Of a stretch of DNA of 64,000 bases, positions 18,289-34,262 are shown in pieces. How positions within the stretch are numbered: the first letter of the stretch is position 1; each line of letters starts with the position of its first letter. Position numbers and translations under genes: made by a program. Under the pieces are notes generated by a model, which was given only the letters and a program-made list of their open reading frames with translations, made no database searches and was not told the origin of the DNA. The DNA is from Alcaligenaceae bacterium (lineage in GTDB: Bacteria; Pseudomonadota; Gammaproteobacteria; Burkholderiales; Burkholderiaceae_B): positions 62,001-126,000 of the forward strand of contig JACCEP010000002.1 in NCBI GenBank assembly GCA_013416395.1, written 5' to 3'.

Positions 18289-18297
18289 TGTTTCTCT

Positions 18298-19200: not shown

Positions 19201-19412
19201 AAGGTGCGTGTATGTGGGTGGCTTGAGCGCGAACGGGCTTCGGGGGACGGTATTCTGTACTCTTTTGCACAGGCGCCACCATTTTACAGAAATGCACGAT
19301 CTGCCCGCTCAGGTATAGTGGCCGGCTGCATAGGTGTCGTGCGACGTCAGTCGTGGCTTGGCATAATGCCAGACGCCTATTCACAATAATTAATCACGGA
19401 GTCTCCAACAAT

Positions 19413-20402
19413 ATGGCAATTTTCCAAAAGAAATTTATTGCGGCCGCACTTACCCTGGGTGCTGCTTCACTGTTCGGGAGCAGCGTCACTATGGCTGCCG
19501 ACTACCCGTCGAACCCTATCCGGGTCATTGTTCCTTTTGCTCCTGGTGGTTCAACCGACATCGTTGCGCGTATCGTGACGCAACGCATGGGCGCGATTCT
19601 GGGTCAGCCCATGATTGTCGAAAACAAGGGTGGCGCCGGTGGTGCCATCGGAGCGCAAGAGGCCGCACGTGCCAAGCCAGATGGCTATACGCTTTCTATC
19701 GCTACCGTGTCGACCATGGCCGTCAACTCGGCGTGTCGGCCCAAAGACCTGCCCTACGATCCGCTCAAAGACTTCATGCCGGTCACTAACTTTGCCAACG
19801 TGCCTAACGTCATTGAAGTGAACCCCAAGTTTCCTGCAAAAACCTTTAAGGAATTTGTACAGGTACTTAAGGACAACCCAGGCAAGTACACACACGGCAG
19901 TTCGGGCACATGCTCGGTACTGCACCTGTTTGGCGAAGCGTTCAAGCAGGCGACAGGCACTGACGCCATACACGTACCATATAAAGGTTCAGGCCCTGCG
20001 GTTACCGACGCCGTGGGTGGGCAGATCGACAGCATGTTCGATAATGTGCCATCGTCCATGGGCCAGATCCAGGCCGGTAAGCTTCGTGCGCTGGCCGTTG
20101 CATGGCCTGAGCGTCTGAAGGCCTTGCCAGATGTACCTACACTTGCCGAAGAAGGTTACCCTGAGCTTAACCAGCCAGCATGGTACGGTTTGCTGGCACC
20201 TGCAGGCACGCCCGAGGCAATCATTACCACCTTGCGCAATGCGGCAGTCGAGGCGCTGAAAGACCCCAAGGTTATCAGTGCGCTTGAAAAACAAGGTGCG
20301 GCGCCTTCAGGCAACACGCCCGAAGAGTTCGCCAAAGAAATCAAAGAGCAATACGATTGGGCCCGTGACATTGTCGCCAAAGGCCATATTACGCTCGAGT
20401 AA
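19413..20402 (+). CDS. Bug/TctC family periplasmic solute-binding protein
   Basis: 329-residue receptor of the Bug family (tripartite tricarboxylate transporters), many paralogs of which occur in Bordetella and other Burkholderiales. A Sec signal ends near VTMAADYPSNPIRVIVPF; the family motif PFAPGGSTDIVARIV follows, then GGAGGAIGAQEAARAKPDGY and the FDNVPSSMGQIQAGKLRALAV segment. The ATG at 19413 has a GGAG ribosome site; a 20-codon upstream extension is rejected. No TctA or TctB genes are nearby, so it is an orphan receptor, as is usual for the family. Its ligand is unknown, probably a carboxylate. A strong terminator follows. Confidence 0.93.
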   Translation: MAIFQKKFIAAALTLGAASLFGSSVTMAADYPSNPIRVIVPFAPGGSTDIVARIVTQRMGAILGQPMIVENKGGAGGAIGAQEAARAKPDGYTLSIATVSTMAVNSACRPKDLPYDPLKDFMPVTNFANVPNVIEVNPKFPAKTFKEFVQVLKDNPGKYTHGSSGTCSVLHLFGEAFKQATGTDAIHVPYKGSGPAVTDAVGGQIDSMFDNVPSSMGQIQAGKLRALAVAWPERLKALPDVPTLAEEGYPELNQPAWYGLLAPAGTPEAIITTLRNAAVEALKDPKVISALEKQGAAPSGNTPEEFAKEIKEQYDWARDIVAKGHITLE

Positions 20403-20461
20403 AGCGCACTGCTTTTCTACGCTGTAATATAAGCTCGCAGCGTATTTGAGCTGCAATCAGT

Positions 20462-20496
20462 AAAAAAGCCAATACCTTCGGGTGTCGGCTTTTTTA
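20462..20496 (+). terminator. Rho-independent terminator after the Bug receptor gene
   Basis: AAAAAAGCC..ACC pairs with GGT..GGCTTTTTT around a UUCG tetraloop, with a T-run, 60 bp after the stop codon. Confidence 0.9.
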
Positions 20497-20578
20497 TTTG
20501 GTGCGCCTGACGGCATGCACTTGCAAGCGCAAGACCTCTCGTAAGTTGTTCATGTCGAACGAAATGATGCGCAGCGGC

Positions 20579-20622
20579 CTGGGGTAAACGAGTGTGGGAG
20601 CACCCGAGTCGCTTTACCCCAG
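20579..20622. repeat. Long inverted repeat upstream of the transporter operon
   Basis: Ten-base perfect arms CTGGGGTAAA and TTTACCCCAG flank a 24-base centre that also pairs partly (GTGGG..CCCGAG). There is no T-run, so it could be an operator or an RNA hairpin. It lies between the preceding terminator and a promoter-like site. Apart from these elements the 20403-20836 gap holds nothing recognisable. Confidence 0.55.
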
Positions 20623-20673
20623 CGGGTAATCCCGAATAAGCATTTTATGAAGTGCCGCTTAACATAAATAAAA

Positions 20674-20703
20674 TTGACACAAAGTTGTTGCCATTTCTAC
20701 CAT
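20674..20703 (+). promoter_or_regulatory. Candidate sigma-70 promoter
   Basis: A perfect TTGACA -35 is followed after 18 bp by TACCAT as a -10 (4 of 6 matches). It sits in AT-rich DNA before the frameshifted small gene and the transporter operon and is the best promoter candidate for both. Confidence 0.45.
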
Positions 20704-20836
20704 GATCCAGGCAAATAAGAGTGGGCATTGCCTTTGGTAATTTGCTGGCCACTAAGCCTGTCGATTTCTGACTTCTTTCCCCGATCGTGTTTGGACCATG
20801 GAACGATGTTCAACTCAAGTTAATCGGGAAAATAAA

Positions 20837-21258
20837 ATGGCGTTTGGGGCAATAAACGAAAGAAGTATAAAAGCTAAAGATAGCCTGAAAATTAATATTG
20901 TTTGCTCTGACGAGGGGCAATTCGTTAATACGATACTTGGCGTTGCAACCGAAAATACGGCTCTGGCTGTTAATACTGCATGCTCATGGCTTGGCAGCGG
21001 ACGGGCTCAGAAGTCGGTATTTCAGCGACGTGTCTGTTTGGAAAGGGCTCAGATGTCGGTATTTCAGCGGCCGGTCTGCTTGAAACGGGCCGAGGTGTCA
21101 ATATTTCAACGGCAGGTCTGTTTATGAGGCACAGCCAAAAAATCAATGAATACCGGGCTGGGCTTAAATTGAATGGTATCGGGGCTGAAGCCCTGAATCA
21201 GTCCGATGCGAAGCAGTACCGTCTCATACAACCATTATCTACTTCCACGGTTAATTAA
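20837..21258 (+). pseudogene. Unrecognised repeat-rich small gene, apparently frameshifted
   Basis: Two overlapping frames join into one plausible protein. The first, from the ATG at 20837, reads MAFGAINERSIKAKDSLKIN and runs to WLGSG near 21001; the second continues with TGSEVGISATCLF to the TAA at 21258. Stepping back one base at A21001 joins them, as if one A were lost, giving about 140 residues. Three 14-residue repeats (consensus GSDVGISAAGLLET) straddle the join only in the second frame; the first frame read through the repeats gives Cys/Arg-rich sequence. I do not recognise the family. It may be a decayed gene, a sequencing error or a programmed shift. No function is proposed. Confidence 0.4.
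21003..21128 (+). repeat. Three tandem 42-bp repeats
   Basis: Copies start at 21003, 21045 and 21087 with the shared core GGGCTCAGATGTCGGTATTT and the end GGTCTGTTT. The 42-bp period keeps frame and gives 14-residue glycine-rich units. They lie inside the frameshifted small gene; the weaker third copy suggests old duplication. Confidence 0.85.
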
Positions 21259-21332
21259 TAATCGGCGTATTCCGGGTTTCTCTTGGGCCTGGTATCAACG
21301 TTTAAACAGGGAGCAGTTTCATGGCGGGAAGC

Positions 21333-21380
21333 TAGTTGGAAGGTAAGTCGTGTAATTAGCTGGAGGGTAAGTCGTGCAAT
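21333..21380 (+). repeat. Two direct 24-bp repeats before the dehydrogenase start
   Basis: TAGTTGGAAGGTAAGTCGTG and TAGCTGGAGGGTAAGTCGTG open two adjacent 24-bp copies that differ at a few bases. They end 14 bp before the ATG, in the leader, where they could act on translation or regulator binding. Confidence 0.7.
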
Positions 21381-21393
21381 TGAGGAGTCCGAT

Positions 21394-22524
21394 ATGAAGA
21401 TCCGTGCAGCGGTATTGCGTGAAATGGGGCTGCCTGCTCCTTATGCACAAAGTAAACCAATCAAAATCGTCGAAGTGGATCTGGATCCTCCCGGGGAGGG
21501 AGAGGTTCTGGTAAAGATCAAAGTAGCGGGTTTATGCCACTCTGATCTTTCAGTGATCAATGGTGATCGGCCACGGGGTGTGCCCTTGGTGTTGGGTCAC
21601 GAGTCGTCGGGCGAAGTCGTTGCTGTAGGCAAGGGCGTGCATGGGCTGCAGCCAGGTGATCATGTGGTCACCGACTTCGTCCCAACGTGTGGTCATTGCC
21701 TGCCGTGCAGTCAGGGGCGCCCAGCTCTGTGCGAACCTGGTGCTCAGGCTAATACGCAAGGGTCTTTATTGGGGGGCGGTCGGCGTCTGCATATGGGCGA
21801 CGAGTCGCTTAACCACCATGTGGGGGTGTCGTGCTTTGCTGATCACGCCGTCGTGTCACAGCATTCTTGTATCAAGATTACACGGCAGATATCACACCGG
21901 GAAGCTGCCCTATTCGGTTGTGCCGTATTGACGGGTGCCGGGGCCGTCATTAACCGGGCTAATTTCAAGTTGGGTGAAACCGCCGCAATTGTAGGTCTGG
22001 GCGGGGTGGGGCTTAGTGCTCTGTTAGCAGCTGTTGCAGCGGGAGCCCGAAGAATTGTGGCCGTTGATCTTAGTGATGAAAAACTTGAGCTGGCTAAAAC
22101 TCTGGGAGCCACCCACGTTATTAATCCCAAGCACGTGACGACTGATAAGGATCAGCTTGAAGCGGCGGGTGGGGCGGTTGACTACGGTTTTGACATGGCT
22201 GGTGCGGTGGCTGCATTTGAAACGGCGTATAAGCTCACGCGTCGGGGTGGCACCACGATTACTTCAGGCCTGCCAAATCCGAAATCATGCTTTTCGTTGC
22301 CGTTGGCGCAAATGGTGGGTGAAGAACGCGATATACGGGGTAGCTATCTGGGGTCGGGCGTTCCAGCCATAGACATAGCCAAATATATTGATTTGTATTT
22401 GGCCGGAAAATTGCCCGTAAATAAGCTTTTGGGTCAGGCATTTACCCTGGATCAAATTAATGAGGGTTTTGATCATCTGGCCTCGGGGTCAAGTCTGCGC
22501 GATTGCATCATATTAGATAATTGA
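21394..22524 (+). CDS. Zinc-dependent alcohol dehydrogenase, first enzyme gene of the transporter cluster
   Basis: 376-residue medium-chain dehydrogenase. Catalytic zinc ligands are Cys48 (GLCHSDLSV) and the GHE of VLGHESSGEVVAVG; four structural-zinc cysteines lie in PTCGHCLPCSQGRPALC (about 99-113). The Rossmann motif GLGGVGLSALLAAVAAGA ends in VAVD, which favours NAD over NADP. It resembles class III or aryl-alcohol dehydrogenases. The ATG at 21394 follows a GAGGAG site; an upstream 37-codon extension crosses the direct repeats and is rejected. The next gene's ribosome site lies just past its stop. It probably oxidises the imported compound or a product, but the substrate is unknown. Confidence 0.9.
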   Translation: MKIRAAVLREMGLPAPYAQSKPIKIVEVDLDPPGEGEVLVKIKVAGLCHSDLSVINGDRPRGVPLVLGHESSGEVVAVGKGVHGLQPGDHVVTDFVPTCGHCLPCSQGRPALCEPGAQANTQGSLLGGGRRLHMGDESLNHHVGVSCFADHAVVSQHSCIKITRQISHREAALFGCAVLTGAGAVINRANFKLGETAAIVGLGGVGLSALLAAVAAGARRIVAVDLSDEKLELAKTLGATHVINPKHVTTDKDQLEAAGGAVDYGFDMAGAVAAFETAYKLTRRGGTTITSGLPNPKSCFSLPLAQMVGEERDIRGSYLGSGVPAIDIAKYIDLYLAGKLPVNKLLGQAFTLDQINEGFDHLASGSSLRDCIILDN

Positions 22525-22538
22525 CCAAGGAGAAACGT

Positions 22539-23552
22539 GTGAGCGCAGACAAAAATACGATGTGGATGAATCCGCTCGTCAAAAGATTCGCCAGGTTGGA
22601 TCAGCTCACTATTGTATTTTTGCTTTTTATTGTTATTTTTCTAGTATTTACGGCAACACTTCCTGGGTTTTTCTCAACAGGAAATCTGGTGGCCATGCTG
22701 CGCTCGATATCTGTGCTCGGTATCCTGGGTTTTGCGATGGCTATTGTCGTGATTGGGCGTGGTATTGATTTGTCCATGGTTGCAGTCATGGCGGTTCCTA
22801 CGGCGCTCATCATGACACTTGCCGGTTCTGGCATGGGTGTATGGCCTGCTTTACTTATCGGTCTGTTATTCGCGCTGGTAGTTGGTTTGCTCAATGGTAT
22901 TTTCGTTGCCTATGCCGAGATCCCGGCTCTGTTTGTTACCTTGGCGATGGGTTTAGGCTTGGCAGGCTTGGGTCAGGTAGGCATTTTGAAATCTGACATG
23001 GTGCCTTGGCCCGACCAAATGAATGGGCTGCTGTGGTTGGGTGGTGTTGATGTGTTTGGCATCCCCAGCAGCATAGTGGTGGTTATTACTGTTGCCTTGC
23101 TGGTTTGGTTGTTCTTGAATTATACGAAACTGGGTTTGTTCATTTATGCGATTGGTGATAACCCAAATGGAGCACGCACCACGGGTATTCCTGTTCGCCC
23201 GATTATCGTTCTTCAGTATGTATTGGCGGCACTGATCGCTGTTTTGGCCGGCCTGGTAATGGCCTCTTCCAATAGCCTTATAGATACCAGAATTTACAAC
23301 CTTTCTTTAATCTACGACATCATTTTGGTGGTGGTTATGGGTGGCGTAGGTTTGTCTGGCGGCCGTGGCGGTGTCATGAGCGTTGTCGTCGGAACGTTGC
23401 TGGTGGGCACAATTATTAATGGGATGACGATTCTTAACCTGACCCTTGACGTACAAAATTTAGTCAAAGGTGTGGTGCTTTTAATTGCCATTGCACTTGA
23501 CAGCGTTTTAAACCCCCGCAACGAGGAGACCGCACAGCAAGGAGATATTTGA
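22539..23552 (+). CDS. RbsC-type ABC transporter permease (first of two)
   Basis: 337-residue inner-membrane permease of the branched-chain/ribose type (BPD_transp_2). Hydrophobic helices fill most of the length; the family loop reads AMAIVVIGRGIDLSMVAVMAVPTALIM, and the late VVMGGVGLSGGRGGVMSVVVGTLLVG block is typical. The GTG at 22539 is the chosen start because AAGGAG lies six bases upstream; a TTG at 22521 overlaps the dehydrogenase stop but has no ribosome site. It likely forms a heterodimer with the permease half of the fusion protein downstream, both served by the double ATPase at 29179. Substrate unknown. Confidence 0.9.
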   Translation: MSADKNTMWMNPLVKRFARLDQLTIVFLLFIVIFLVFTATLPGFFSTGNLVAMLRSISVLGILGFAMAIVVIGRGIDLSMVAVMAVPTALIMTLAGSGMGVWPALLIGLLFALVVGLLNGIFVAYAEIPALFVTLAMGLGLAGLGQVGILKSDMVPWPDQMNGLLWLGGVDVFGIPSSIVVVITVALLVWLFLNYTKLGLFIYAIGDNPNGARTTGIPVRPIIVLQYVLAALIAVLAGLVMASSNSLIDTRIYNLSLIYDIILVVVMGGVGLSGGRGGVMSVVVGTLLVGTIINGMTILNLTLDVQNLVKGVVLLIAIALDSVLNPRNEETAQQGDI

Positions 23553-23657
23553 TCTCAATTACTCAGCCACAGAGTTCAGCATTCAAAAGTAAATCAAAAA
23601 TTATCATAGATTAAATCAAAGAAACTGAATGCTGATATACATATTTAGGAGACAAAA

Positions 23658-24722
23658 ATGAATGGTTTTCGATTTCTGCGACGCGGTCATCTGGCAAATT
23701 TTCTAGCCACCACGGCTTTGGGGTTGTCAGTCGCCACACTTTCGATTCTGGGTCCGGGCATCGCCGCAGCCCAAGGTGCAGGCGCTATCAAAGATCCTGA
23801 GCGTGCTCGCTACTACGATATTTACAAAGACAAACGCGTGGTTTTTGTGCCGGTGTTCATGGGGCTTGATCTGACCGAAGGCTGGTCTGAGGTCATGAGC
23901 CAACAGGCAAAGCGTCTGGGCTATCAATACGAAGTCAGGAATGCAAATTTTGACACCTCGGCGGGCGTACAGATTCTTACCCAGCTTCTAAATGAGAACC
24001 CCAAGCCCAATGTGGTGGTGATACAGAACCCTGATGTCACCTCTTATGCCAAGATCGAGAAAAAGCTCGAAGAAGCCGGAATCTACGTCATACAGCTCAA
24101 CATGAAAAGCCTGACCATGACAACAGGTTTTGCTGGTGCAGATGCAACCGTTATCGGTGAAACGCAAGCGCAGTGGGTGGTGGACCAGTGTGGCCCGTCT
24201 ACGTCACAAAAGATCATGATTCTGAACGGCCCTACAACCGCTCCCTGGACGGTATATATGCAAGAGGGCTACAACAATATTCTCGATAAACATCCCGACG
24301 TCAAGGTCGTGGCCCGGCAATCTGTGGGCAACTACGAGTCAAGCAAAGCCAAATCCATTACTGAGGTTACGCTTAAGCAGCATCCCGACCTGTGCGCCAT
24401 TATGGGGGTTTGGGATATTCCCGATCTGGCTACAGCCGCCGCTGTCAAAGACGCTGGCAAAACCGGCAAGATACTGGTTTCCACCAGCGGCGGTGGGGGC
24501 GAAGTCGCATGTAAGGGCTTGAAGTCCGGCGGGTTCGATCACTATGTTAGCTACGATGTGCCAGGCCAAAGTCGTGACGTGAACGATCTTATTCAAATGG
24601 CAATGCAAAGCCCCGAAAAGCCGGGCAAGCTCAAAGTGGCGCTGTATACACCTTTGTTTGTTTATACCCAGAAAGATGCCGAAAGCCATCAATGCTGGTC
24701 GGTAGATACCTTGCACCAATAA
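23658..24722 (+). CDS. Periplasmic sugar-type binding protein, copy 1
   Basis: 354-residue receptor of the ribose/galactose-binding (Peripla_BP_4) type. A long signal peptide (start MNGFRFLRRGHLANFLATT) ends near IAAAQGAGAIKDPERARYYD. The body carries VFVPVFMGLDLTEGWSEVM, ILTQLLNENPKPNVVVIQNP, ILNGPTTAPWTVYMQEGYN and the hinge GVWDIPDLATAAAV. Most of its sequence matches the next gene, so the two are tandem paralogs. It begins 105 bp after permease 1, behind an AGGAGA site. Two cysteines (in VVDQCGP and HPDLCAIMG) plus CWSV near the end are shared by both copies and may form disulphides. Confidence 0.9.
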   Translation: MNGFRFLRRGHLANFLATTALGLSVATLSILGPGIAAAQGAGAIKDPERARYYDIYKDKRVVFVPVFMGLDLTEGWSEVMSQQAKRLGYQYEVRNANFDTSAGVQILTQLLNENPKPNVVVIQNPDVTSYAKIEKKLEEAGIYVIQLNMKSLTMTTGFAGADATVIGETQAQWVVDQCGPSTSQKIMILNGPTTAPWTVYMQEGYNNILDKHPDVKVVARQSVGNYESSKAKSITEVTLKQHPDLCAIMGVWDIPDLATAAAVKDAGKTGKILVSTSGGGGEVACKGLKSGGFDHYVSYDVPGQSRDVNDLIQMAMQSPEKPGKLKVALYTPLFVYTQKDAESHQCWSVDTLHQ

Positions 24723-24845
24723 ACCTGCTGTCGTCGAACAGGTTGTTGTTTATATCGGGTACGCGGGGCAGTTCTTGGAATAGCCCTGCGTCCCTGAGTC
24801 GCTGTCGATAAGTAAACGCTTGCCACGGATGTTACGGAGAATATT

Positions 24846-25910
24846 ATGAAAACTGACCGCTTCGCGTACCGCAGGTTTCTGGACCGAAGATTTTCCACCC
24901 TGGCGGCTGGCATGGTGGCGACCATACTGTCGCTCGGTCTGTTTGGCCAAGCGTGTGCACAGGGATCAGGAGCTATTAAAGATCCTGAACGTGCCCGTTA
25001 TTACGATCTTTACAAAGGCAAGCGTGTTGTTTTTGTTCCGGTATTCATGGGGCTTGACCTGACCGAGGCGTGGTCCAAGATTATGCAGCTGCAGGCCAAA
25101 CGCCTGGGGTATGAGTACGAGGTTCGCAACGCCAATTTTGATACGTCTGCGGGTGTACAGATCCTGACTCAATTGCTTAACGAAGACCCCAAGCCGGATG
25201 TCGTCGTAATACACAACCCTGATGTCACCTCGTATGCCAAGATCGAGAAAAAGCTCGAACAGGCAGGCGTGTCTGTGGTGCAGCTAAATATGAAAAGCCT
25301 GCAGATGACAACCGGGTTTGCAGGTGGAGACGCGACGGTCATTGGTGAAATGCAGGCCCAGTCTGTGGTTAAACACTGCGGGCCAGATACTTCACGCAAA
25401 GTGTTGATCCTCAATGGCCCTACAACGGCTCCCTGGACGGTTTATTTACAGGATGGGTACAACAAGGTATTTGAGAAAAACCCCGAAATTAATATCGTGG
25501 CCCGCCAGTCGGTGGGTAATTATGAGTCTTCGAAAGCCAAGTCGATTACCGAAGTAACCCTTAAGCAACACCCTGACTTGTGTGCTGTTATTGGTGTCTG
25601 GGATATTCCAGATATGGGGACGGCTGCCGCCATTGCCCAAGAAGGGAAAACTGGGAAAGTGTTTCTGTCGACCAACGGTGGGTTTAGCGACTATGCCTGC
25701 AAAGCCATAGAAGACGGAAAATTCAGTAATTACATCAGCTTTAATGTGCCGGGCCAGGGGCGTGATGTCAATAATTTGATTCAGATGGCGCTGCAAAGCC
25801 CCGATAAACCTGGAACATTGCAGGTGGCTCTGTACTCGCCCCTGCAAGAAATTACCAAGAGTGATCTGGCCAGTAATCGGTGCTGGACGCTGGACACCGT
25901 GCATCAGTAA
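24846..25910 (+). CDS. Periplasmic sugar-type binding protein, copy 2
   Basis: Also 354 residues and co-linear with the preceding receptor from GAIKDPERARYYD to CWTLDTVHQ without visible gaps, so a gene duplication is clear. Its signal peptide differs (MKTDRFAYRRFLDRRFSTLA), with cleavage near QACAQGSG. Differences cluster in spots likely to line the ligand cleft, for example STNGGFSDYACKAIEDGKF against STSGGGGEVACKGLKSGGF, and PLQEITKSD against PLFVYTQKD. That suggests the copies bind related but not identical ligands. A GGAG site precedes the ATG. A palindromic hairpin follows the stop, which could raise receptor mRNA levels over the permease downstream. Confidence 0.9.
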   Translation: MKTDRFAYRRFLDRRFSTLAAGMVATILSLGLFGQACAQGSGAIKDPERARYYDLYKGKRVVFVPVFMGLDLTEAWSKIMQLQAKRLGYEYEVRNANFDTSAGVQILTQLLNEDPKPDVVVIHNPDVTSYAKIEKKLEQAGVSVVQLNMKSLQMTTGFAGGDATVIGEMQAQSVVKHCGPDTSRKVLILNGPTTAPWTVYLQDGYNKVFEKNPEINIVARQSVGNYESSKAKSITEVTLKQHPDLCAVIGVWDIPDMGTAAAIAQEGKTGKVFLSTNGGFSDYACKAIEDGKFSNYISFNVPGQGRDVNNLIQMALQSPDKPGTLQVALYSPLQEITKSDLASNRCWTLDTVHQ

Positions 25911-25920
25911 TGTAATTTCC

Positions 25921-25940
25921 TCAAGCCCCCAGGGGCTTGA
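25921..25940 (+). terminator. Palindromic hairpin after receptor copy 2
   Basis: TCAAGCCCC and GGGGCTTGA form a near-perfect palindrome without a T-run, 10 bp past the stop. Such a hairpin between receptor and permease genes usually stabilises upstream mRNA or partly attenuates readthrough. Confidence 0.6.
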
Positions 25941-25972
25941 GCTGTCGAACTAAATGGATACCCCATAGAAGC

Positions 25973-28081
25973 ATGGATACGATAAAGAAACTTCGGTATC
26001 GCTATTGGCCCGACCGCGCAATTGGTGAGTTGCTGGCAAAACAATGGATGGAAACGGCGGTACCGTTACTTGTGCTTTTGCTTGTAATTGCAGGCTTTGC
26101 ATCGGTTTCTGAAAACTTTCTTACGTTTAGCTCTATTTCTGTACTGCTGCGGCAATCAGGTGAAATCGGCTTTATCGTATTTGGCATGGCATTGGTGCTG
26201 ATTGTTGGCGGGATCGATCTTAGCGTGGGGTCGATGTATGCAATTTGCAATGTACTGGTTCTGTACTTTATCCACGTTCTTGAATGGTCTATTTTCCCCG
26301 CAATGGGGGTGACCCTGTTGTGCGGTGCGCTTATGGGTGCCGTCAATGGCGTGCTGATCGGGTATCTGAAGCTGCGTGCTTTTCTTACGACGCTGGTTAC
26401 CTTGATTGTTTTTCGCGCCATATTCAACCTCATTCAGTTTAAATGGGCGGTTGAAATTGCGTCGACGATTCCGGACTCTGACTTGTGGGATGAGTTGGGC
26501 AACGGTACTGTGCTTTTTCTGCCGGTTTCTACCTGGATCTTCATCATCGTCGCCATTTTGCTCCACATATTTCTAACTCGCATGCGGGGCGGATGGCACA
26601 TGATGGCAGTGGGCGGCTCTCGTCGCTCTGCATACAATTCTGGTCTGCCGGTTAATCGGATCGCGGCGCAGGCGTATGTCGCTTCTGGCGTGTTTGCCGC
26701 CGTAGCCGCCATTTTGTATGCGGCTCGGGTCGACAGCAGCAGCGCCGACACAGGCATGGGTCTGGAGATCGTGGTGCTCGCAGCGGCTTTGCTGGGCGGT
26801 ATCCGCCTGGGGGGCGGTAAGGGCTCAGTCGTCAAAGCAGTACTCGGTACCCTGATTATTCTGATCGTTACCAATGGCCTTAGGGGGTTGTCTGTTCCTG
26901 CGGGGTATATCCGCATGTCGTTGGCCTTTATCATGATTGCAGCGGTAACCCTGGATATCCGCTGGTTCAAGAATCGTGGCAAGGCGTTAAGCGAGCTGTA
27001 TGTCAGCCCCGGCTATTTGTCCTTGCCATCGGCTCCCGATACGCATGCCGAGTCAAAATCACCTTATTCGGTAAATAATAAGTTTGGTGATACTCAGTTA
27101 ATCGGTCTGGGCATGATCGAGTCCCCCGAAGACGTGATCCTGGACGAGGACGATAACCTTTATTGTGGCACTCGTCATGGCGACGTCATGCGGTTTTTTG
27201 CGCCTGACTATAAGCGTATGGAGCTTTATGCGCATATTGGTGGCCAGCCGCTGGGGATGGCATTCGACAAAAGCGGCAATTTGTATGTTTGCGTGGGTGG
27301 CATGGGGCTTTACTGCATTCAACGCAATGACCGTTCGGTCGTAAAGGCAACCGATGAAACAGGGCGCTCATGGCTATCAGTCGTGGATGACAGCCGCTTA
27401 CGGCTGGCAGATGACCTGGATATTGCCCCCGATGGCCGAATTTTCTTTTCTGAAGCGACCGTACGCTACGAGATGCATGAGTGGCCCATCGACAGCCTTG
27501 AAGGGCGAGGCAATGGCCGTATTATTTGTTATGACCCACGTACCGGCCGCACGCACACTGTACTGAAGAATCTGATATTTCCTAATGGTGTTTGCATTGC
27601 ATCGGATGGCCAGTCACTGCTTTTTGCAGAAAGCTGGGCGTGCCGGATTAGCCGTTATTGGTTTGATGGGCCTAATAAAGGCAAGCTGGAGGTTGTTATC
27701 GCCGATTTGCCAGGTTATCCGGACAATATCAACAGGGCGTCTGATGGTAATTACTGGATTGCCATCATGGGCATGCGCAGCCCGGCTTTCGATCTGGCGA
27801 TGCGTTCACCCGCATTTCGTCGACGTATGGTCAAACGCCTGGGGCAAGATGAGTGGTTAGCCCCGAATATCAATGTGGGTTGCGTGATCAAGTGCAATGA
27901 TAATGGGCAGGTTCTGGAGTCGTACTGGGATCGCAGTGGTAAAAATCACCCCATGATTACTTCTATGCGCGAACATCGGGGTTATTTGTATCTGGGGGGT
28001 ATATCCAACAACCGCATTGGTCGATACAAATTAGAAGCGGCTGACCCCGATTTCATGCAGCATCCCATCGAAAAGGTTTAA
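25973..28081 (+). CDS. Fusion: RbsC-type ABC permease + SMP-30/strictosidine-synthase-like beta-propeller
   Basis: 702-residue two-domain protein. Residues 1 to about 345 are a full permease: VFGMALVLIVGGIDLSVGSMY is the classic RbsC loop, and AAALLGGIRLGGGKGSVVKAVLGTL closes it. After a short polar linker (about 345-380), residues 380-700 form a soluble propeller of the SMP-30/strictosidine-synthase-like type, with ESPEDVILDEDDNLYCG, FPNGVCIASDGQSLLFAESW and GYPDNINRASDGNYWIAIMG, which keep the expected metal-ligand Asn/Asp positions. RbsC-type permeases place the C-terminus in the cytoplasm, so the enzyme would meet substrate as it enters. The ATG at 25973 is preferred to a TTG at 25937. 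The frame is uninterrupted, so it is a real fusion in the sequence given. Confidence 0.9.
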   Translation: MDTIKKLRYRYWPDRAIGELLAKQWMETAVPLLVLLLVIAGFASVSENFLTFSSISVLLRQSGEIGFIVFGMALVLIVGGIDLSVGSMYAICNVLVLYFIHVLEWSIFPAMGVTLLCGALMGAVNGVLIGYLKLRAFLTTLVTLIVFRAIFNLIQFKWAVEIASTIPDSDLWDELGNGTVLFLPVSTWIFIIVAILLHIFLTRMRGGWHMMAVGGSRRSAYNSGLPVNRIAAQAYVASGVFAAVAAILYAARVDSSSADTGMGLEIVVLAAALLGGIRLGGGKGSVVKAVLGTLIILIVTNGLRGLSVPAGYIRMSLAFIMIAAVTLDIRWFKNRGKALSELYVSPGYLSLPSAPDTHAESKSPYSVNNKFGDTQLIGLGMIESPEDVILDEDDNLYCGTRHGDVMRFFAPDYKRMELYAHIGGQPLGMAFDKSGNLYVCVGGMGLYCIQRNDRSVVKATDETGRSWLSVVDDSRLRLADDLDIAPDGRIFFSEATVRYEMHEWPIDSLEGRGNGRIICYDPRTGRTHTVLKNLIFPNGVCIASDGQSLLFAESWACRISRYWFDGPNKGKLEVVIADLPGYPDNINRASDGNYWIAIMGMRSPAFDLAMRSPAFRRRMVKRLGQDEWLAPNINVGCVIKCNDNGQVLESYWDRSGKNHPMITSMREHRGYLYLGGISNNRIGRYKLEAADPDFMQHPIEKV

Positions 28082-28085
28082 CAAC

Positions 28086-29174
28086 ATGCTCAAAAGAATT
28101 AAGCGTGCGCATAATCGTTTTTTTGGGGTGGGTGAGGCCGATACGTCGGTACCTGTATTTGATGGGGCGCTCAAACCCAATCATTTACTCGACACCGCAG
28201 AGGTCTTTCTTGAGCGCCCGGGCCTGGAGGACATGGCCATCGATGGCCAGGGTCGTCTGGTTGTGGCGTGTGGCAATGATATCTTGCGCGTCGAACCCGG
28301 TGGGGCCTTGCAGCCGATTGCCAGTTTGCCTGGGCCCATTCAGGCCCTCGCGTCGTATCGCGATGGCCTGGTTGTGGCTACCCGGGATGGCCTGTCGTTT
28401 GTGACAGGCGCTTTCGACGGAAAACATGTTCAAACACTGGGCGATCAGCCTGCGCAATGCATCAATGCACTGTGTGAAGGCCCCGACGGCACTGTATTGA
28501 TCACCGAGGGGTCGCGCACCATACCCTATGACGACTGGGCTGTAGATTTGCTCAGCGGGGGTAAAAGTGGGCGTCTTCTTATGTACAACCCAGAATCGGG
28601 CAACACCCAAGTTCGTGCGCAAGGCTTGGCCTATGGCTATGGCGTGTGTTACGACGGTGAGCGCATAGTGGCGTCAGAAAGCTGGGCTCATCGCGTTTTG
28701 GTTTTGCGCGAAGACAGCATAGATTCAGGCCCGAGCCAGATACCTGGCTACCCCTCGCGTATTGCTGCCGCTTCTGGGGGCGGTTTCTGGCTGACAATTT
28801 TTGCTCCGCGCAGCCAATTGCTTGAATTCGTGCTGCGGGAAGATGCCTTTCGCGCTGAAATGATGCAAACCGTCGAGCCCAAGTATTGGATTGCGCCCGC
28901 CTTAAGCTCAGGCCAGGATTTTCTGGAACCCCTGCAACAGGGCGGCGTGAGGCAAATGGGCACACTAAAGCCATGGGCACCTGCACGTTCCTATGGCCTT
29001 ATCTTGCGTCTGTCGCAAGACTTAGTGCCGCTGTATTCCTTGCATAGTCGTGTTGGCGGCTTGCACCACGGTATTGTGGCCGCAGCCGAACTCGATGGCG
29101 CCTTGCTGGCCTTGTCCAAGGGTTCAGGACGCATTCTGCGTGTGCCGCTATCTGATCTTGAACTACAGGACTGA
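28086..29174 (+). CDS. Stand-alone SMP-30/strictosidine-synthase-like propeller protein
   Basis: 362-residue soluble protein with no signal peptide, similar in repeat pattern to the propeller half of the preceding fusion and starting 5 bp after it. Blades are marked by LEDMAIDGQGRLVVACG, CINALCEGPDGTVLITEGS, YGYGVCYDGERIVASESWAHRV and GYPSRIAAASGGGFWLTIF. Compared with the fusion, FPNG has become YGYG and PDNI has become PSRI, so two positions that normally hold metal ligands are replaced. It may be catalytically altered or a structural partner. SMP-30 relatives include lactonases and phosphotriesterase-like hydrolases. Substrate unknown; co-translation with its neighbours is likely. Confidence 0.85.
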   Translation: MLKRIKRAHNRFFGVGEADTSVPVFDGALKPNHLLDTAEVFLERPGLEDMAIDGQGRLVVACGNDILRVEPGGALQPIASLPGPIQALASYRDGLVVATRDGLSFVTGAFDGKHVQTLGDQPAQCINALCEGPDGTVLITEGSRTIPYDDWAVDLLSGGKSGRLLMYNPESGNTQVRAQGLAYGYGVCYDGERIVASESWAHRVLVLREDSIDSGPSQIPGYPSRIAAASGGGFWLTIFAPRSQLLEFVLREDAFRAEMMQTVEPKYWIAPALSSGQDFLEPLQQGGVRQMGTLKPWAPARSYGLILRLSQDLVPLYSLHSRVGGLHHGIVAAAELDGALLALSKGSGRILRVPLSDLELQD

Positions 29175-29178
29175 CACC

Positions 29179-30669
29179 ATGACACCGATATTGGAACTTC
29201 ATCAGGCGACCAAGCGGTATGGGGGCGTTCCGGCCATAGAACAGGTCGACTTCACGCTCATGAAAGGGGAAATCCATGCGCTATGCGGCGAAAACGGTGC
29301 AGGCAAATCGACACTGACCAAAGTGATGGCGGGGGTGGTCGACCTTAGCTCGGGCGAGATGAAGATCGATGGCAAACCTGTGTCGTTTCGCAACCCCGTC
29401 GAGGCCTTGTCGGCCGGCGTGGCCATGGTGTTTCAGGAAACCAGCCTGGTACCCACCATGACGGTAGGTCAAAATCTGTTTCTGGGCAAAGAAAAATTCG
29501 TTAATCGCTTGCGGGCTATTTATATTGCTGCACAGCAGTTACTGCAGTCACTTAACTTTAATGTAGACCCCACCCTCATGGTGGCCAATCTTGGCGCTGC
29601 CCAAAAGCAAATGGTTGAGATTGCCCGTGCCGTGCTGCACGATGCGCGCGTCATTATTTTTGATGAGCCCACGGCAACGCTTACACCAGAAGAGAAAAAA
29701 TATTTCTTTGACTTGATACGTAATCTGAAAGCCCGGGGTGTATCTATTATTTTTATTTCCCACGCGTTGGAAGAAGCGCTGGAGCTGTCGGACAGAATCA
29801 CCGTGATGCGGGATGGCAAGCATATTGTGACTGACGATACCGTAAAGTTTAATCGCGACAGTATTGTCCACGCCATGGTTGGTCGTGACCTGGCCAGCAC
29901 GCTGTATGGTCAGAAGACGACGTTGCGTAAGGCGGGAGAGCGGGTGCTTAGCGTACAGAATCTGCGCATGGGGACTATGGTACGCAATACGTCATTTTCG
30001 GTTTTTGCCGGCCAGATCACGGGTGTGTTTGGTCTTATCGGGTCGGGTCGCACCGAAACATTCAAGGTGGTGGCGGGGGTGCTCAAGCGCGACTATACCC
30101 ACGGAGGCAAAATCCTGTTCAAAGACAAGCCTATACGCTACCGGGTGCCAGCACCTGCAGTTGCTGCCGGTATTGCCTACATTACCGAAGACCGAAAGGT
30201 TGATGGTTTTTTTGAAACCATGACTATTTCGCGCAATATCTATGCGGGCTTGCTTGCAAAACTGCGGGGAAAGCGCCAGGTGATGCGGCGTTCTGAAGAA
30301 AAAGCCACAGGTTCACACTGGAGGCAAAAGCTGAATGTGCGTGCAGTAACCGAAAATGCCAAAGTCATTGAGTTATCGGGTGGCAATCAGCAAAAAGTCG
30401 TTATTGCCAAATCTTTGGTTCAAAACCCCGAGTTGGTCATCTTCGACGAGCCTACGCGCGGCGTGGATGTGGGTGCCGTTGCCGAGATCCACGAGATCAT
30501 CCGTGGCCTTGCTGATCAAGGTCTGGCCGTTGTCGTGATTTCTTCTTACCTGCCCGAAATCATGATGCTGTCTGATCGCATATTAGTGTCGCGTCAGGGG
30601 CGTATCGTAGAAGAGTTCACCAATACGAACGTGACTGAAGAGGAGATCATGTATGCCTCCATCCATTGA
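29179..30669 (+). CDS. RbsA-type double ABC ATPase
   Basis: 496-residue protein with two ATPase domains, the form that powers sugar importers with RbsC-type permeases. Domain 1 has Walker A GENGAGKST, an atypical signature NLGAAQKQMVEIARA and Walker B VIIFDEPTA. Domain 2 has the usual degenerate P-loop GLIGSGRTE, a full signature LSGGNQQKVVIAKS and VIFDEPTRGVDVGA. These asymmetries are normal for the family. The ATG at 29179 lies 4 bp after the propeller gene stop; a longer frame from 29050 overlaps that gene and is rejected. It completes the importer. No further same-strand gene follows for about 460 bp before the tRNA. Confidence 0.93.
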   Translation: MTPILELHQATKRYGGVPAIEQVDFTLMKGEIHALCGENGAGKSTLTKVMAGVVDLSSGEMKIDGKPVSFRNPVEALSAGVAMVFQETSLVPTMTVGQNLFLGKEKFVNRLRAIYIAAQQLLQSLNFNVDPTLMVANLGAAQKQMVEIARAVLHDARVIIFDEPTATLTPEEKKYFFDLIRNLKARGVSIIFISHALEEALELSDRITVMRDGKHIVTDDTVKFNRDSIVHAMVGRDLASTLYGQKTTLRKAGERVLSVQNLRMGTMVRNTSFSVFAGQITGVFGLIGSGRTETFKVVAGVLKRDYTHGGKILFKDKPIRYRVPAPAVAAGIAYITEDRKVDGFFETMTISRNIYAGLLAKLRGKRQVMRRSEEKATGSHWRQKLNVRAVTENAKVIELSGGNQQKVVIAKSLVQNPELVIFDEPTRGVDVGAVAEIHEIIRGLADQGLAVVVISSYLPEIMMLSDRILVSRQGRIVEEFTNTNVTEEEIMYASIH

Positions 30670-30884
30670 TGGGTTAATTGCCTGATCCGTGCGCCAAGGT
30701 CTGAACTTGATTAGCCGATAGTTTGGCCAAGCCTTAGATACCCAGGTGGTCCTTCTATGGCGTGTTGCACAAGTAGCTGGCTTAATCAGGCTATCAGTTG
30801 CCGTGCCGTCTGGAATTGCGTCGCGTTGCCAATGTACGCAGGCGGGTGCCATGGTGGTTGGATGCGGCGAGTTCCGAGTAGTGT

Positions 30885-30933
30885 GTTGTTTGTTGTTTGT
30901 TGTTTGTTGTTTGTTGTTTGTTGTTTGTTGTTT
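30885..30933 (+). repeat. Seven perfect copies of heptanucleotide GTTGTTT
   Basis: A 49-bp simple sequence repeat. Since 7 is not a multiple of 3, slippage would change frame in any gene across it. It lies within small open frames of doubtful reality (30746-30994 and 30757-31140, plus strand). Confidence 0.95.
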
Positions 30934-31029
30934 CATATATGGCTGTTGCTGTTGCTGTGGCGGGCCAACTATCTTGGCCGACGTGTCAAGGTAATTTTCG
31001 CTGAACATGTTGCCGTGGTTTATGCCGCA

Positions 31030-31059
31030 TTCAGGCTCGCGGCAACATTGCTTTATAAT
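31030..31059 (+). promoter_or_regulatory. Possible promoter of tRNA-Arg
   Basis: Perfect TATAAT at 31054-31059, 71 bp before the tRNA, with a weak TTCAGG 18 bp upstream of it. Only the -10 is convincing. Confidence 0.35.
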
Positions 31060-31130
31060 GCTAGCCCGGTGTGCTCGGCTTGGCGTTTTTACACGCCTAT
31101 GCAGCTGTGCATCTACTCACCGATATTTGC

Positions 31131-31205
31131 GTCCCTGTAGTTAAATGGATATAACTTTCCCCTCCTAAGGGAAGATTGCAGGTTCGATTCCTGCCGGGGA
31201 CGCCA
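31131..31205 (+). tRNA. tRNA-Arg, anticodon CCU (reads AGG)
   Basis: 75-nt cloverleaf. The acceptor GTCCCTG pairs with CGGGGAC (one G-U), the anticodon stem TTCCC/GGGAA encloses loop CTCCTAA with CCT at the anticodon positions, and the T-arm GCAGG-TTCGATT-CCTGC is perfect. G73 precedes an encoded CCA. tRNA-Arg(CCU) genes are frequent integration sites for mobile elements; no integrase lies beside this one. Confidence 0.95.
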
Positions 31206-31414
31206 AGTCTATTCTGTCAGTCTGCTTGTATCTCCATTAGCGTTCCCTCCCATATCATGCGCGATACGCGACTTGTGCTGGCGTTTTCCCTTTCCTATAA
31301 AACCTTGTTGTTGATCAATTACCAAACTACAGCGTATGATCTTGACGGCAGTCAGTGCCCCGGGTATTTGAGCCCGGTTTTCCTTATCTGCAAGGTATGT
31401 AAAGGAGTTAAAAA

Positions 31415-31543
31415 ATGAAAAAAGCGATTGTTTTGTTGCTGCTGGGGGCGTCCGTTGTTATTGCGGGCTGCAATACAATTAGCGGTGCTGGTAAGGATAT
31501 CGAGCGCGGTGGCGAAAGCATTCAGAAAGCCGCCGACAAATAG
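31415..31543 (+). CDS. Entericidin-family small lipoprotein
   Basis: 42-residue lipoprotein too short for usual ORF cut-offs. It starts MKKAIVLLLLGASVVIAGCN with a lipobox IAGC cleaved before Cys19, followed by an entericidin-type tail: ISGAGKDIERGGESIQKAAD and a final K. A strong AAAGGAG site lies 7 bp before the ATG. Entericidins are outer- or inner-membrane lipoproteins of the EcnA/EcnB toxin-antidote type linked to stationary-phase lysis in enteric bacteria; in betaproteobacteria single copies are common and their function is unclear. Upstream, TTGACG (31342) and TATTTG (31365) are 17 bp apart, and a CCGGG/CCCGG hairpin overlaps that region. Confidence 0.88.
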   Translation: MKKAIVLLLLGASVVIAGCNTISGAGKDIERGGESIQKAADK

Positions 31544-31719
31544 GGCTTAACTCAGCGTGATGGCGCCGGGACAAAACTTCGATGGCTATGAGGTTGTCAT
31601 GTTCCCGAGCGCCATTTTGTTTTTTTGGCATTGCGGTGCATCTGATGATCAGGATGGGGCCGCTGCGGCTGACTCTGTTCCAGCCTCAGAACCCCGGCAT
31701 CAAAACCCCAGTCCCGGCC

Positions 31720-31777
31720 CCAGAGAGCCAGAGAGCCCGAGCCCCAGCCCGAGCCCGAGCCCAGCCTCCGGCCCCAG
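31720..31777. repeat. GAGCCC/CAGCCC hexamer-like low-complexity tract
   Basis: A run of imperfect GAGCCC, CCAGCC and GAGCCCGAG units between the entericidin gene and ybaK. The plus-strand frames across it give Pro/Ser/Glu stretches with no start or homology support, so it is treated as noncoding. Confidence 0.7.
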
Positions 31778-31801
31778 TCGCTGTCATCGCCATAGCGTGC
31801 G

Positions 31802-32296
31802 TTATGCTTTCGCCAGCCCTGCTTCCACAGGTTGTGCGGACAGCAATTGCGTCAGTGCATCAGGCGCAACGCCTATCAGGTAGCCACGCCGGCCTCCGTT
31901 GACATAGATCACGGGGTAATCCAGCAGCGCGGCCTCTACCCATACCGACATCTTCTTGCGCGTTGCAAAAGGCGACGTGCCACCCACCAAATATCCCGAA
32001 TGTTTTTGCGCGGTTTCAACTGAGCAGGGTGCGACGCGCTTGACGCCGATCTGGCGCGCCAGATTTTTGGTTGATACTTCACAATCGCCGTGCATGACCA
32101 CGATAAGCGGTTTGCTGTTTTCGTCTTCCATGATGAGTGTCTTACCCACCTGGTGTGGGTCAAGGCCCAACTGACGCGCCGCTTCGCCTGCACCGCCATG
32201 ATCCACATAGTCATAAGCATGGCCGGTGAACGCAATCTTGTGTTTTTTCAGCAACTGCGTGGCAGGTGTTTCGGAAACGTGTTTTTCTTTGCTCAT
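31802..32296 (-). CDS. ybaK: YbaK-type Cys-tRNA(Pro)/Cys-tRNA(Cys) deacylase
   Basis: 164-residue editing-domain protein that hydrolyses mischarged Cys-tRNA(Pro). Family features are TPATQLLKKHKIAFTGHAY, VGKTLIMED with the conserved Lys (Lys52), VVMHGDCEVSTKNLAR and GYLVGGTSPFATRKKM. A 97-codon in-frame extension up to 32587 overlaps xerD and is rejected; homology begins at the ATG at 32296. It starts 11 bp after the xerD stop and is probably co-transcribed with it. Confidence 0.93.
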   Translation of the reverse strand: MSKEKHVSETPATQLLKKHKIAFTGHAYDYVDHGGAGEAARQLGLDPHQVGKTLIMEDENSKPLIVVMHGDCEVSTKNLARQIGVKRVAPCSVETAQKHSGYLVGGTSPFATRKKMSVWVEAALLDYPVIYVNGGRRGYLIGVAPDALTQLLSAQPVEAGLAKA

Positions 32297-32307
32297 GTCG
32301 TTTGCCT

Positions 32308-33228
32308 TCAAGCGCGCGGGTGATGTTTTGCATGCAGCGCCTTGAGGCGTTCGCGGGCTACATGCGTGTAAATTTGGGTGGTTGAAATGTCGGCATGGCC
32401 CAGCAACATCTGTACGACCCTCAGGTCGGCACCGTGATTTAGCAGATGCGTGGCAAAGGCATGGCGCAACACATGCGGCGACAGCGGCACTTGTATATCG
32501 GCCAGAGCAGCGTATTTTTTTACGATAAGCCAGAAAGCCTGTCGCGTCATGCCTGAGCTGCGGGCCGTAATGAACAGAACATCGCATTGCCTGCGCCCCA
32601 GCAATTCGGGGCGGGCGTTATTTAGGTAGAGGCTTATCCAATGAAGGGCTTCTTCGCCCAGGGGCACGAGGCGATCTTTTCCGCCCTTGCCCATGGTCAC
32701 CCTCACCACCCCTTCTGTCAGGCTGACATCAAGTACGTTGAGGCCTACTAGCTCAGAAACCCGCAAGCCGGTGGCATACAGGGTTTCGAGCATGGCCCGG
32801 TCACGCAATCCCAGGGTGCTGCGTGTGTCGGGCGCCTCAAGTAAATCATCTACCTGGCCCTCAGAGAGTGTTTTGGGAAATCTGGGTGCCTGTTTGGCGG
32901 CGTGCAGCGTAAGGCAAGGGTCTTGCGTAACCTGGCCATGACGCAGCGCCCAAAGATAATAACGCCTCAGCGAAGCCAGCCTTCGGTTGGCCGTTGTGGC
33001 CTTGGTGCTGGCGTGGCGGGCGGCAAACCACGCCTGGATATCGCTGGCGCCGGCCTGTTCCAAAGAGCCTGCCTGCTGCTGATGCAACCACTGTGCAAAT
33101 GCAGTCAGATCACGACGGTAAGCGGCCAGGGTGTTGGCAGCAAGGCCGTCTTCAAGCCAGACAGCGTCCAGGAATAGGTCGATGGAGGCAGGGGGGGTAA
33201 AGAATGTAGGAGGCACGCGGCGTGACAA
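32308..33228 (-). CDS. xerD: Site-specific tyrosine recombinase XerD
   Basis: 306-residue recombinase that, with XerC, resolves chromosome dimers at dif. It has an N-terminal SAM-like core-binding domain (IDLFLDAVWLEDGLAANTL) and a C-terminal catalytic domain. The catalytic set is complete by count: Arg156 in TGLRVSEL, Lys184 in GKGGKDR, His252 and Arg255 in HVLRHAFATH, His278 in LLGHADISTTQIYTH and nucleophile Tyr287. The start and length match housekeeping XerD rather than a phage integrase, even though a tRNA gene is near. It is divergent from modA. Confidence 0.94.
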   Translation of the reverse strand: MSRRVPPTFFTPPASIDLFLDAVWLEDGLAANTLAAYRRDLTAFAQWLHQQQAGSLEQAGASDIQAWFAARHASTKATTANRRLASLRRYYLWALRHGQVTQDPCLTLHAAKQAPRFPKTLSEGQVDDLLEAPDTRSTLGLRDRAMLETLYATGLRVSELVGLNVLDVSLTEGVVRVTMGKGGKDRLVPLGEEALHWISLYLNNARPELLGRRQCDVLFITARSSGMTRQAFWLIVKKYAALADIQVPLSPHVLRHAFATHLLNHGADLRVVQMLLGHADISTTQIYTHVARERLKALHAKHHPRA

Positions 33229-33278
33229 GAAGAGGGTTTGACGACGATCAATATGTTATCGCACGCCGTTTGACGTAT

Positions 33279-33302
33279 CGCTATATACGTATATATATTA
33301 CG
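33279..33302. promoter_or_regulatory. Candidate ModE-binding molybdate box
   Basis: CGCTATATA and TATATTACG form an imperfect palindrome in AT-rich DNA about 200 bp before modA, very like the half-sites CGnTATATA of known Mo-boxes. With modE convergent on the same operon, molybdate-dependent repression of modABC is likely. Confidence 0.6.
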
Positions 33303-34255: not shown

Positions 34256-34262
34256 GTAGTAA

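Follow-up and report, generated by a model that had tools for sequence, protein, structure and literature searches.

The window analysed here, a stretch of 64,000 nucleotides from a contig of an Alcaligenaceae bacterium (JACCEP010000002.1, positions 62,001 to 126,000), carries a cluster of seven genes encoding an ATP-binding cassette (ABC) importer of the CUT2 type, one permease of which is fused to a β-propeller domain. The genes for the permease, the receptor, the fusion, a second propeller (propeller 2), and the ATPase form a cassette that recurs in the same order in many other bacteria. This cassette is a variant of the CUT2 importers that is real, conserved, and, as far as the literature was searched, uncharacterised. 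The reading that we prefer, with a probability of roughly 0.45, is that the system imports small branched lactones or hydroxy acids, that the ring is opened at the exit of the permease, and that the product is subsequently oxidised. Gene order, the fusion and its conservation, the residue loss in propeller 2, the neighbouring genes, and the genomic island harboring the cluster were computed directly.

Conservation and distribution of the cassette

Searching gene neighbourhoods with the fusion protein revealed that the cassette order was complete in 73 of 76 places, far beyond what is expected by chance. The three remaining places (L046, L086, and L123) were interrupted by the end of a contig or record. 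Gene calls, which were generated by our own script except for plasmid loci, accounted for completeness in 71 of the 76 places, and L050 and L134 were added by tblastn. Six duplicate loci (L101 to L105 and L135) were dropped before counting, and L046 and L047, the two ends of one plasmid record, were counted once. The count retains some near-identical pairs (L015/L017 and L100/L119). In L016, an additional open reading frame (ORF) of 534 residues was called between the permease and receptor genes. The completeness of the order in nearly all places indicates, with high confidence, that the fusion is an old and stable architecture rather than an accident of the window genome. A single open frame encodes the fusion of the window as well as those of the relatives, which come from independent assemblies and finished plasmids. 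These intact fusions rule out an assembly or annotation artefact, for which we see virtually no chance.

One scan of genome contigs identified 18 relatives in the Alcaligenaceae, Comamonadaceae, Marinobacteraceae, roseobacters, Stappiaceae, and other groups, and a scan of plasmids detected the cassette on 16 records. At the level of the family, 8 of 200 genomes contained the fusion; the figures for the order and the phylum were 2 of 399 and 11 of 398, respectively, with the genome of the window included each time. The fusion was not found in the four other genomes of the window's genus. Two further groups, chosen because they had matches, carried it in 24 of 151 and 3 of 195 genomes, respectively. 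Existing annotations designate the fusion as 'SMP-30/gluconolactonase/LRE family protein', 'ABC transporter permease', or 'RbsC'.

Gene content of the cluster

The initial annotation of the window had proposed seven co-directional genes at positions 21,394–30,669, encoding a complete sugar-type importer (RbsABC) together with propellers and an oxidoreductase. The order of the genes, all on the plus strand, and their domains were confirmed by the list of ORFs and by Pfam (Table 1), which also bore out the importer since a Peripla_BP_4 receptor, BPD_transp_2 permeases, and a tandem ABC_tran ATPase were all detected. In the fusion, Pfam assigned BPD_transp_2 to residues 68–336 and SSL_N, SGL, and Str_synth to residues 376–612. 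The ATPase displayed full-length matches to NCBIfam CUT2 families, all under the equivalog cut-offs. No protein of the cluster reached the NCBIfam equivalog cut-off of an importer of known substrate (ribose, arabinose, xylose, allose, galactofuranose, or autoinducer-2). For example, the ATPase scored 479 versus a cut-off of 699 for xylose, and a permease scored 142 versus 378 for AraH. The two receptors of the window only had weak matches, to many sugar receptors. The TTG starts listed for permease 1 and for the fusion are mechanical; inspection by eye favoured GTG 22539, following AAGGAG, and ATG 25973, respectively.

Other features of the initial annotation were retained in part. Tight spacing was observed on both sides of propeller 2, which is separated from the fusion and from the ATPase gene by gaps of 4 bp, but not on the two sides of the first receptor gene (gaps of 105 and 123 bp). 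The short gaps favour co-transcription. Seven promoter-like and 11 terminator-like matches were detected in the region, not above the numbers obtained with shuffled sequences (11.4 and 12.2, respectively). A pair of receptors as part of the system is not supported: the two are 70% identical, and the second is a lineage-specific tandem copy, present only in the window and in L003 among the loci checked for it. Similarly, the oxidoreductase belongs to the cluster but not to its core: homologues with at least 50% identity were found beside the cassette in only five other loci, L002 (89%), L004 (75%), L106 and L107 (55%), and L047 (53%). The best NCBIfam match of this alcohol dehydrogenase (ADH) was an NDMA-dependent ADH (302 bits, under the cut-off of 440).

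Table 1. Coordinates of the features of the window and of Drp35-family genes in other loci.
Feature	Position	Strand	Basis or remark
Zinc-dependent alcohol dehydrogenase (medium-chain dehydrogenase/reductase, MDR)	21394..22524	+	ADH_N + ADH_zinc_N (Pfam); partner enzyme, not core
CUT2-type permease 1	22521..23552	+	BPD_transp_2 8e-30 (Pfam)
Periplasmic receptor 1	23658..24722	+	Peripla_BP_4 (Pfam); signal-peptide-like N-terminus, by reading
Periplasmic receptor 2, tandem copy of receptor 1	24846..25910	+	Peripla_BP_4 (Pfam)
Fusion: CUT2 permease 2 (residues ~37-345) + SSL/SMP-30-type β-propeller (residues ~376-714)	25937..28081	+	Pfam
Propeller 2, stand-alone	28086..29174	+	Weak Str_synth match; fold by AlphaFold2 and Foldseek
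Tandem-domain CUT2 ATPase (RbsA/XylG/AraG-like)	29179..30669	+	ABC_tran, two stretches (Pfam)
Island absent from the closest sister genome (G102)	20496..31016		blastn of window 17000-35000 versus L162
tRNA-Arg(CCT)	31131..31205	+	Just past the right island edge
Drp35-family proteins in HMG-CoA reductase operons	L143 11085-12119; L147 3100-4191; L151 11393-12442		Alphaproteobacterial-type genomes

The fused propeller

Pfam, AlphaFold2, and fold comparison all assigned a propeller fold to the C-terminal part of the fusion. The AlphaFold2 model (predicted local distance difference test, pLDDT, 74.3; predicted template modelling score, pTM, 0.55) consists of helices followed by the propeller. Profile searches retrieved a rice strictosidine synthase-like (SSL) protein (8kg3, 3.5e-30) and strictosidine synthases; the matches to DrP35 (7.6e-4) and DFPase (0.002) were weak. 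Fold matches also included gluconolactonase (4gn7) and xylonolactonase (7plb).

The propeller of the window contains the Glu/Asp/Asn/Asp pattern of the SMP-30/SSL metal-dependent propellers, with metal-type residues at E398, D492/D493, N550, D596, and N597. We take these positions to be metal holders, as in PON1, SMP-30, and Drp35. E398, N550, D596, and N597 were kept in 74 of 75 aligned fusions, and position 492 was occupied by Asp in 63 and by Asn in 11 relatives. Alignment via Drp35-family proteins matched D492 to the residue altered in the Drp35 D138N mutant, and N550 and D596 to the conserved Asn and Asp of that family. Judging from these residues, the fused propeller is probably catalytic and may act as a lactonase. 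L098 harbors a diverged cassette, the fused propeller of which is devoid of the metal-site residues.

Ten membrane helices were assigned to the fusion, with both termini inside, 19 Lys and Arg residues in the inside loops, and none in the outside loops. According to this charge count, the fused propeller is predicted to be located on the cytosolic side of the membrane.

The second propeller

Propeller 2 displayed a match to Str_synth (E 3e-4, 21 bits) under the curated cut-off of 25. AlphaFold2 predicted a propeller (mean pLDDT 80.7), and the best Foldseek match was strictosidine synthase 6s5u (TMt 0.73). The metal-site pattern was lost: the Asn column contained Asn in 6 of 74 sequences, the Asp column contained Asp in none of the 74, and the next column contained Arg in 71 of the 74. 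In contrast to these losses, the Lys of the KPWAP motif and the second His of HHG were kept in all 74 sequences. No signal-peptide-like start was apparent when the sequence of propeller 2 was read. Propeller 2 is therefore probably a pseudo-enzyme that kept the fold and lost the metal-site residues, and the possibility that both propellers are catalytic was rejected on this basis. Thus, the initial proposal of lactonase- or hydrolase-like propellers applies to the fused domain, which keeps the metal-site residues, but not to propeller 2.

Association with mevalonate catabolism

A degradative 3-hydroxy-3-methylglutaryl-CoA (HMG-CoA) reductase gene was present in the same locus as the cassette in seven relatives. 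It was located directly upstream from permease 1 in L050, L136, L137, and L139, in the same run as the cassette in L112 and L131, and about 7 kb from the cassette, on the other strand, in L132. The L137 reductase scored 431 bits against TIGR00532 (cut-off of 260). HMG-CoA lyase was encoded in all of these loci except L050, scoring 404 bits versus 246 in L137. Among 151 genomes of one family, 22 encoded a reductase over the cut-off, 24 encoded the fusion, and eight encoded both. The two were 2.2 to 7.4 kb apart in six of these eight genomes and separate in the others (G974 and G1075). Under uniform placement, the chance of such proximity is about 1e-12, a figure that ignores kinship, the reductase-linked fusions forming two clades.

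We also examined 16 reductase loci lacking the cassette. The large permease of a tripartite ATP-independent periplasmic (TRAP) transporter was encoded co-directionally beside the reductase in six of them (L147, L148, L151, L153, L154, and L156), and TctA in two (L143 and L149). In L143, L147, and L151, a tripartite tricarboxylate (TTT) or TRAP transporter was followed by an SGL protein of the Drp35 family (Table 1). The L151 protein matched Drp35 (2dg0) at 2.3e-83, and its L143 and L147 counterparts were 69–85% identical to it. All three have signal-peptide-like starts, as judged by reading and not by a predictor. Excerpts of PMC6052127 report that Drp35 converts mevalonolactone to mevalonate at 478 µmol/min/mg and other lactones at least 100-fold more slowly. 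A scan of 82 cassette loci detected no separate Drp35-like gene and returned only weak matches, to the fusions themselves. In these operons, carboxylate transporters thus pair with a lactonase that seems to act outside the cell, whereas the lactonase-like domain linked to the sugar-type ABC importer seems to be inside. These gene associations suggest that mevalonolactone or mevalonate is probably the cargo in one subgroup of cassettes.

The locus of the window is devoid of a reductase gene. In the genome of the window, a degradative HMG-CoA reductase is encoded on another contig (L166 8854–12257, contig C12 of G000), together with CaiB and enoyl-CoA hydratase. Five genes follow this set; judging from how long they are and from weak matches to ATPases, they may encode an ABC importer of the branched-chain type, which could represent a fourth class of mevalonate transporters. 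Since this reductase lies apart from the cassette and is accompanied by transporter-like genes, mevalonate as the cargo of the window cassette is possible but not favoured.

Genes neighbouring the cassette

Neighbouring proteins were clustered, and names were taken from one scanned representative per cluster, the scan covering only part of the neighbours. The genes found near the cassette encoded short-chain dehydrogenase/reductase (SDR; 21 loci), aldehyde dehydrogenase (ALDH; 17), zinc ADH (13), acyl-CoA synthetase (12), enoyl-CoA hydratase (9), CMD-family protein (9), CaiB (7), acyl-CoA dehydrogenase (7), HMG-CoA reductase (6), HMG-CoA lyase (6), and MmgE/PrpD (5). No alkaloid-synthesis context was found for the cassette. 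One cassette clade, comprising L129 and L130 (stand-alone) and L127, L099, and L125 (long ORF), is flanked by genes for an AraC regulator and an acyl-CoA synthetase, which is fused to an enoyl-CoA hydratase in L127. This context suggests yet another carboxylic-acid cargo for that clade.

In the tree of the fusions, the window grouped with L122, L006, L124, L004, L008, L007, L005, L011, L001, L003, and L002 (SH-aLRT 99); the tree was a quick one with SH-aLRT support only, and the positions of long branches, including L098, are unsure. The fusion of plasmid pShin-09, which is split at the record origin and stayed outside the tree, was 77% identical to that of the window over residues 473–708. 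In 9 of the 13 members of the clade extended to pShin-09, two or more dehydrogenase genes (SDR, ALDH, zinc- or iron-dependent ADH) were located beside the cassette. The window has one such gene, and none was recognised beside the cassette in L001, L003, and L011.

The cassette of L008 is followed by co-directional genes for ALDH, SDR, a MaoC-like protein, acyl-CoA dehydrogenase, MmgE/PrpD, CaiB, and CoA lyase. According to excerpts of PMC12290011, CaiB, MaoC, CoA lyase, acyl-CoA dehydrogenase, and MmgE/PrpD constitute the content of a methylsuccinate/itaconate cluster, where MmgE/PrpD serves as a methylsuccinate isomerase. The same five families were present within about 10 kb of the cassette of pShin-09, and three of the five in L124. 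Outside the clade of the window, only L048 reached three. L008 and pShin-09 therefore match the methylsuccinate/itaconate cluster at the level of families, and the island of the window does not. Based on this gene content, the window's clade probably imports a compound that gives rise to a branched C5 dicarboxylate of the methylsuccinate/itaconate class; a methyl- or methylene-γ-butyrolactone, for example, would fit.

Proposed mechanism and alternative interpretations

In the preferred reading, the periplasmic receptor would pass a small, sugar-like, neutral ligand (a branched lactone or its open form) to a permease formed as a heterodimer of permease 1 and the fusion, powered by the tandem ATPase. 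At the cytosolic exit, the fused propeller would open the ring with a divalent metal held by Glu398, Asp492, Asn550, and Asp596, much as Drp35 acts on mevalonolactone, and the charged product would be trapped in the cell, unable to leave again. Metal-less propeller 2 would be a non-catalytic partner with a structural, gating, or substrate-guiding role. The products would enter a catabolic route leading from alcohol to aldehyde, acid, and CoA ester, the zinc-dependent ADH of the window performing the first such step. We infer this cargo and the coupling of import to hydrolysis and oxidation. The initial annotation had proposed such a coupling for one compound. Among the compounds guessed at that stage (a lactone, a glycoside, or a polyol), the lactone agrees best with the evidence.

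Several observations weigh against this reading. The fused propeller is closer to plant SSL proteins and strictosidine synthases than to Drp35, AlphaFold2 modelled the membrane part of the fusion with modest confidence, and the assignment to the cytosolic side was deduced from charges alone. A Drp35-like gene was carried by only three of the 16 cassette-less reductase loci. Of the genes of a catabolic pathway, the island of the window holds that of the ADH alone. The module proteins of L008 and pShin-09 are only 33–47% identical, except for acyl-CoA dehydrogenase (73%); the MaoC-like protein of the module had no Pfam match at 1e-5, and the pShin-09 lyase scored 156 bits versus a RipC cut-off of 375.

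Most CUT2 importers transport sugars, and the system might instead import a sugar or polyol for an oxidative, non-phosphorylating pathway in which an SDR or ADH would make an aldonolactone and the propeller would be the aldonolactonase. The resemblance of the receptors to allose, YtfQ, and ribose receptors and of the propeller to gluconolactonase and xylonolactonase is consistent with this interpretation, as is the score of the pShin-09 SDR, which exceeds the threshold set for PRK07231, the 'glucose 1-dehydrogenase' subfamily (349 versus 215 bits). Sugar-related genes were found in three relatives: an FGGY sugar-type kinase gene in the cassette operon of L111, pentose-phosphate-type genes preceding the cassette of L051 (Pantoea), and xylA, annotated about 5 kb downstream from the ATPase gene of L053 (Paracoccus). 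All three count against the coupling of import, hydrolysis, and oxidation, and those of L111 and L051 also speak for a sugar or polyol cargo and against the preferred reading. The lack of kinases of common sugars, noted initially for the cluster, does not extend to L111. The nameable neighbours are nonetheless mainly CoA-ester and HMG-CoA enzymes rather than sugar-acid dehydratases or kinases, although sugar genes may have been undercounted, and the cut-offs of the known sugar importers were not reached. We therefore consider a sugar or polyol cargo rather unlikely. As initially suggested, pentose use is the less likely pathway, the neighbours in the relatives being mainly SDRs, aldehyde and alcohol dehydrogenases, and CoA-ester enzymes.

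The propellers could also be devoid of enzymatic activity and form a heteromeric cytosolic cap that has a structural or gating role, senses the product, or regulates the pump. Such a role would account for the retention of propeller 2 in all complete cassettes despite the loss of its metal-site residues, for the fusion of a propeller to the pump itself, and for the loss of the same residues in L098, the sole exception (1 of 75) to the metal-site pattern, which is located on a long branch and also argues against catalysis. The conservation of E398, N550, D596, and N597 in the other 74 fusions, in the pattern of metal-dependent hydrolases, and the occurrence of Drp35 in the analogous operons make this explanation improbable. 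Hydrolysis of an ester or glycosyl ester, as by TGW6, with a plant conjugate as the cargo, would fit with rice TGW6 (8kg3) being the closest solved relative by both profile and fold and with the plant association of several hosts. However, no conjugate-specific genes were recognised nearby, and the cargo suggested by the mevalonate operons is small, either a free acid or a lactone, leaving little room for this possibility.

Beyond the proposed import of branched lactones by the window cassette, the family as a whole may tentatively be viewed as 'vectorial lactonases', namely widespread importers in which a permease-borne hydrolase would open a neutral ring at the exit, with a metal-less propeller as an obligate partner; we regard this generalisation as somewhat doubtful. 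With equal reserve, such importers could be seen as the mirror image of the mevalonate operons that combine a secreted Drp35-type lactonase with a carboxylate transporter.

Genomic island

The 10.5-kb segment containing the whole cluster is an insertion relative to the closest sister genome, G102, in which the matches to window positions 17000–20495 and 31017–31205 are 73 bp apart by blastn. The G+C content is 51.7% for positions 21394–30669 and 58.1% and 57.9% for the flanks. Three sister-genome loci (L162, L163, and L164) were compared at this site. The flanks are about 150 bp apart in G052, and in G013 the site is occupied by an insert of about 11.6 kb that differs from that of the window. 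In G080, which is outside the comparison, the two anchor genes are about 180 kb apart. With little or no sequence between the flanks in two sister genomes and another stretch in a third, the site beside tRNA-Arg(CCT) may be an insertion hot spot. A phage- or integrase-borne island was rejected as no integrase was present among the ORFs listed inside 20496–31016.

Outside the island, the gene at 32308–33228, which all five genomes of the genus carry, reads by eye as a XerC/D-type tyrosine recombinase. A TctC-type receptor gene (19353–20402), located left of the island, is outside the cluster and present in sister genomes. Between the left edge and the ADH gene, positions 20838–21256 read like a broken or frame-shifted repeat-protein gene, with 42-nt repeats at 21003–21120 and a 24-nt repeat at 21333–21381. 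Shortly after the ATPase gene, a 7-nt unit is present in seven perfect copies (30884–30933).

Relation to known systems

The cassette resembles the CUT2 importers of the RbsABC, XylFGH, and YtfQRT types by its Peripla_BP_4 receptor, BPD_transp_2 permeases, and ATPase with tandem nucleotide-binding domains, with full-length NCBIfam matches. It differs from them by the C-terminal propeller on one permease, the constant second propeller gene, and scores under every equivalog cut-off. Staphylococcus aureus Drp35, a mevalonolactonase (2dg0, 2dg1, and 2dso), shares a six-bladed-type fold match and the metal-site positions with the fused propeller, but is free-standing and weakly related in sequence (E 7.6e-4). 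The strictosidine synthase-like proteins, including rice TGW6, are closest to the fused propeller in sequence and fold, but are unfused plant enzymes, and the strictosidine synthases lack the Asn and Asp kept by the fusion. Strictosidine synthase has a Pictet-Spengler activity that depends on a catalytic Glu. The β-propeller lactonase RPA3624 (8djf and 7ris), SMP-30, PON1, and DFPase, which are fold matches of the fused propeller, are soluble and unfused. Finally, the IctPQM importer with its ict-ich-ccl/methylsuccinate cluster shares catabolic gene families with the neighbours of two relatives, but it is a carboxylate TRAP importer without a propeller, and the module is outside the island of the window.

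In the open-licence literature searched, which included excerpts of PMC6052127, PMC13370337, PMC12290011, and PMC12599236 and provides weak evidence, we found no description of the fusion cassette, of a mevalonolactone ABC importer, or of any bacterial importer of mevalonolactone or mevalonate. To the same extent, the cluster has no previously assigned substrate, as the initial annotation had assumed. If the proposed mechanism is correct, uptake and the first catabolic reaction would be performed by one machine, and the cassette would be a candidate bacterial importer for mevalonolactone or mevalonate. It would also provide a function for many genes that neighbour those of sugar ABC transporters and are annotated as 'SMP-30/gluconolactonase/LRE family protein', 'hypothetical protein', or 'strictosidine synthase'.

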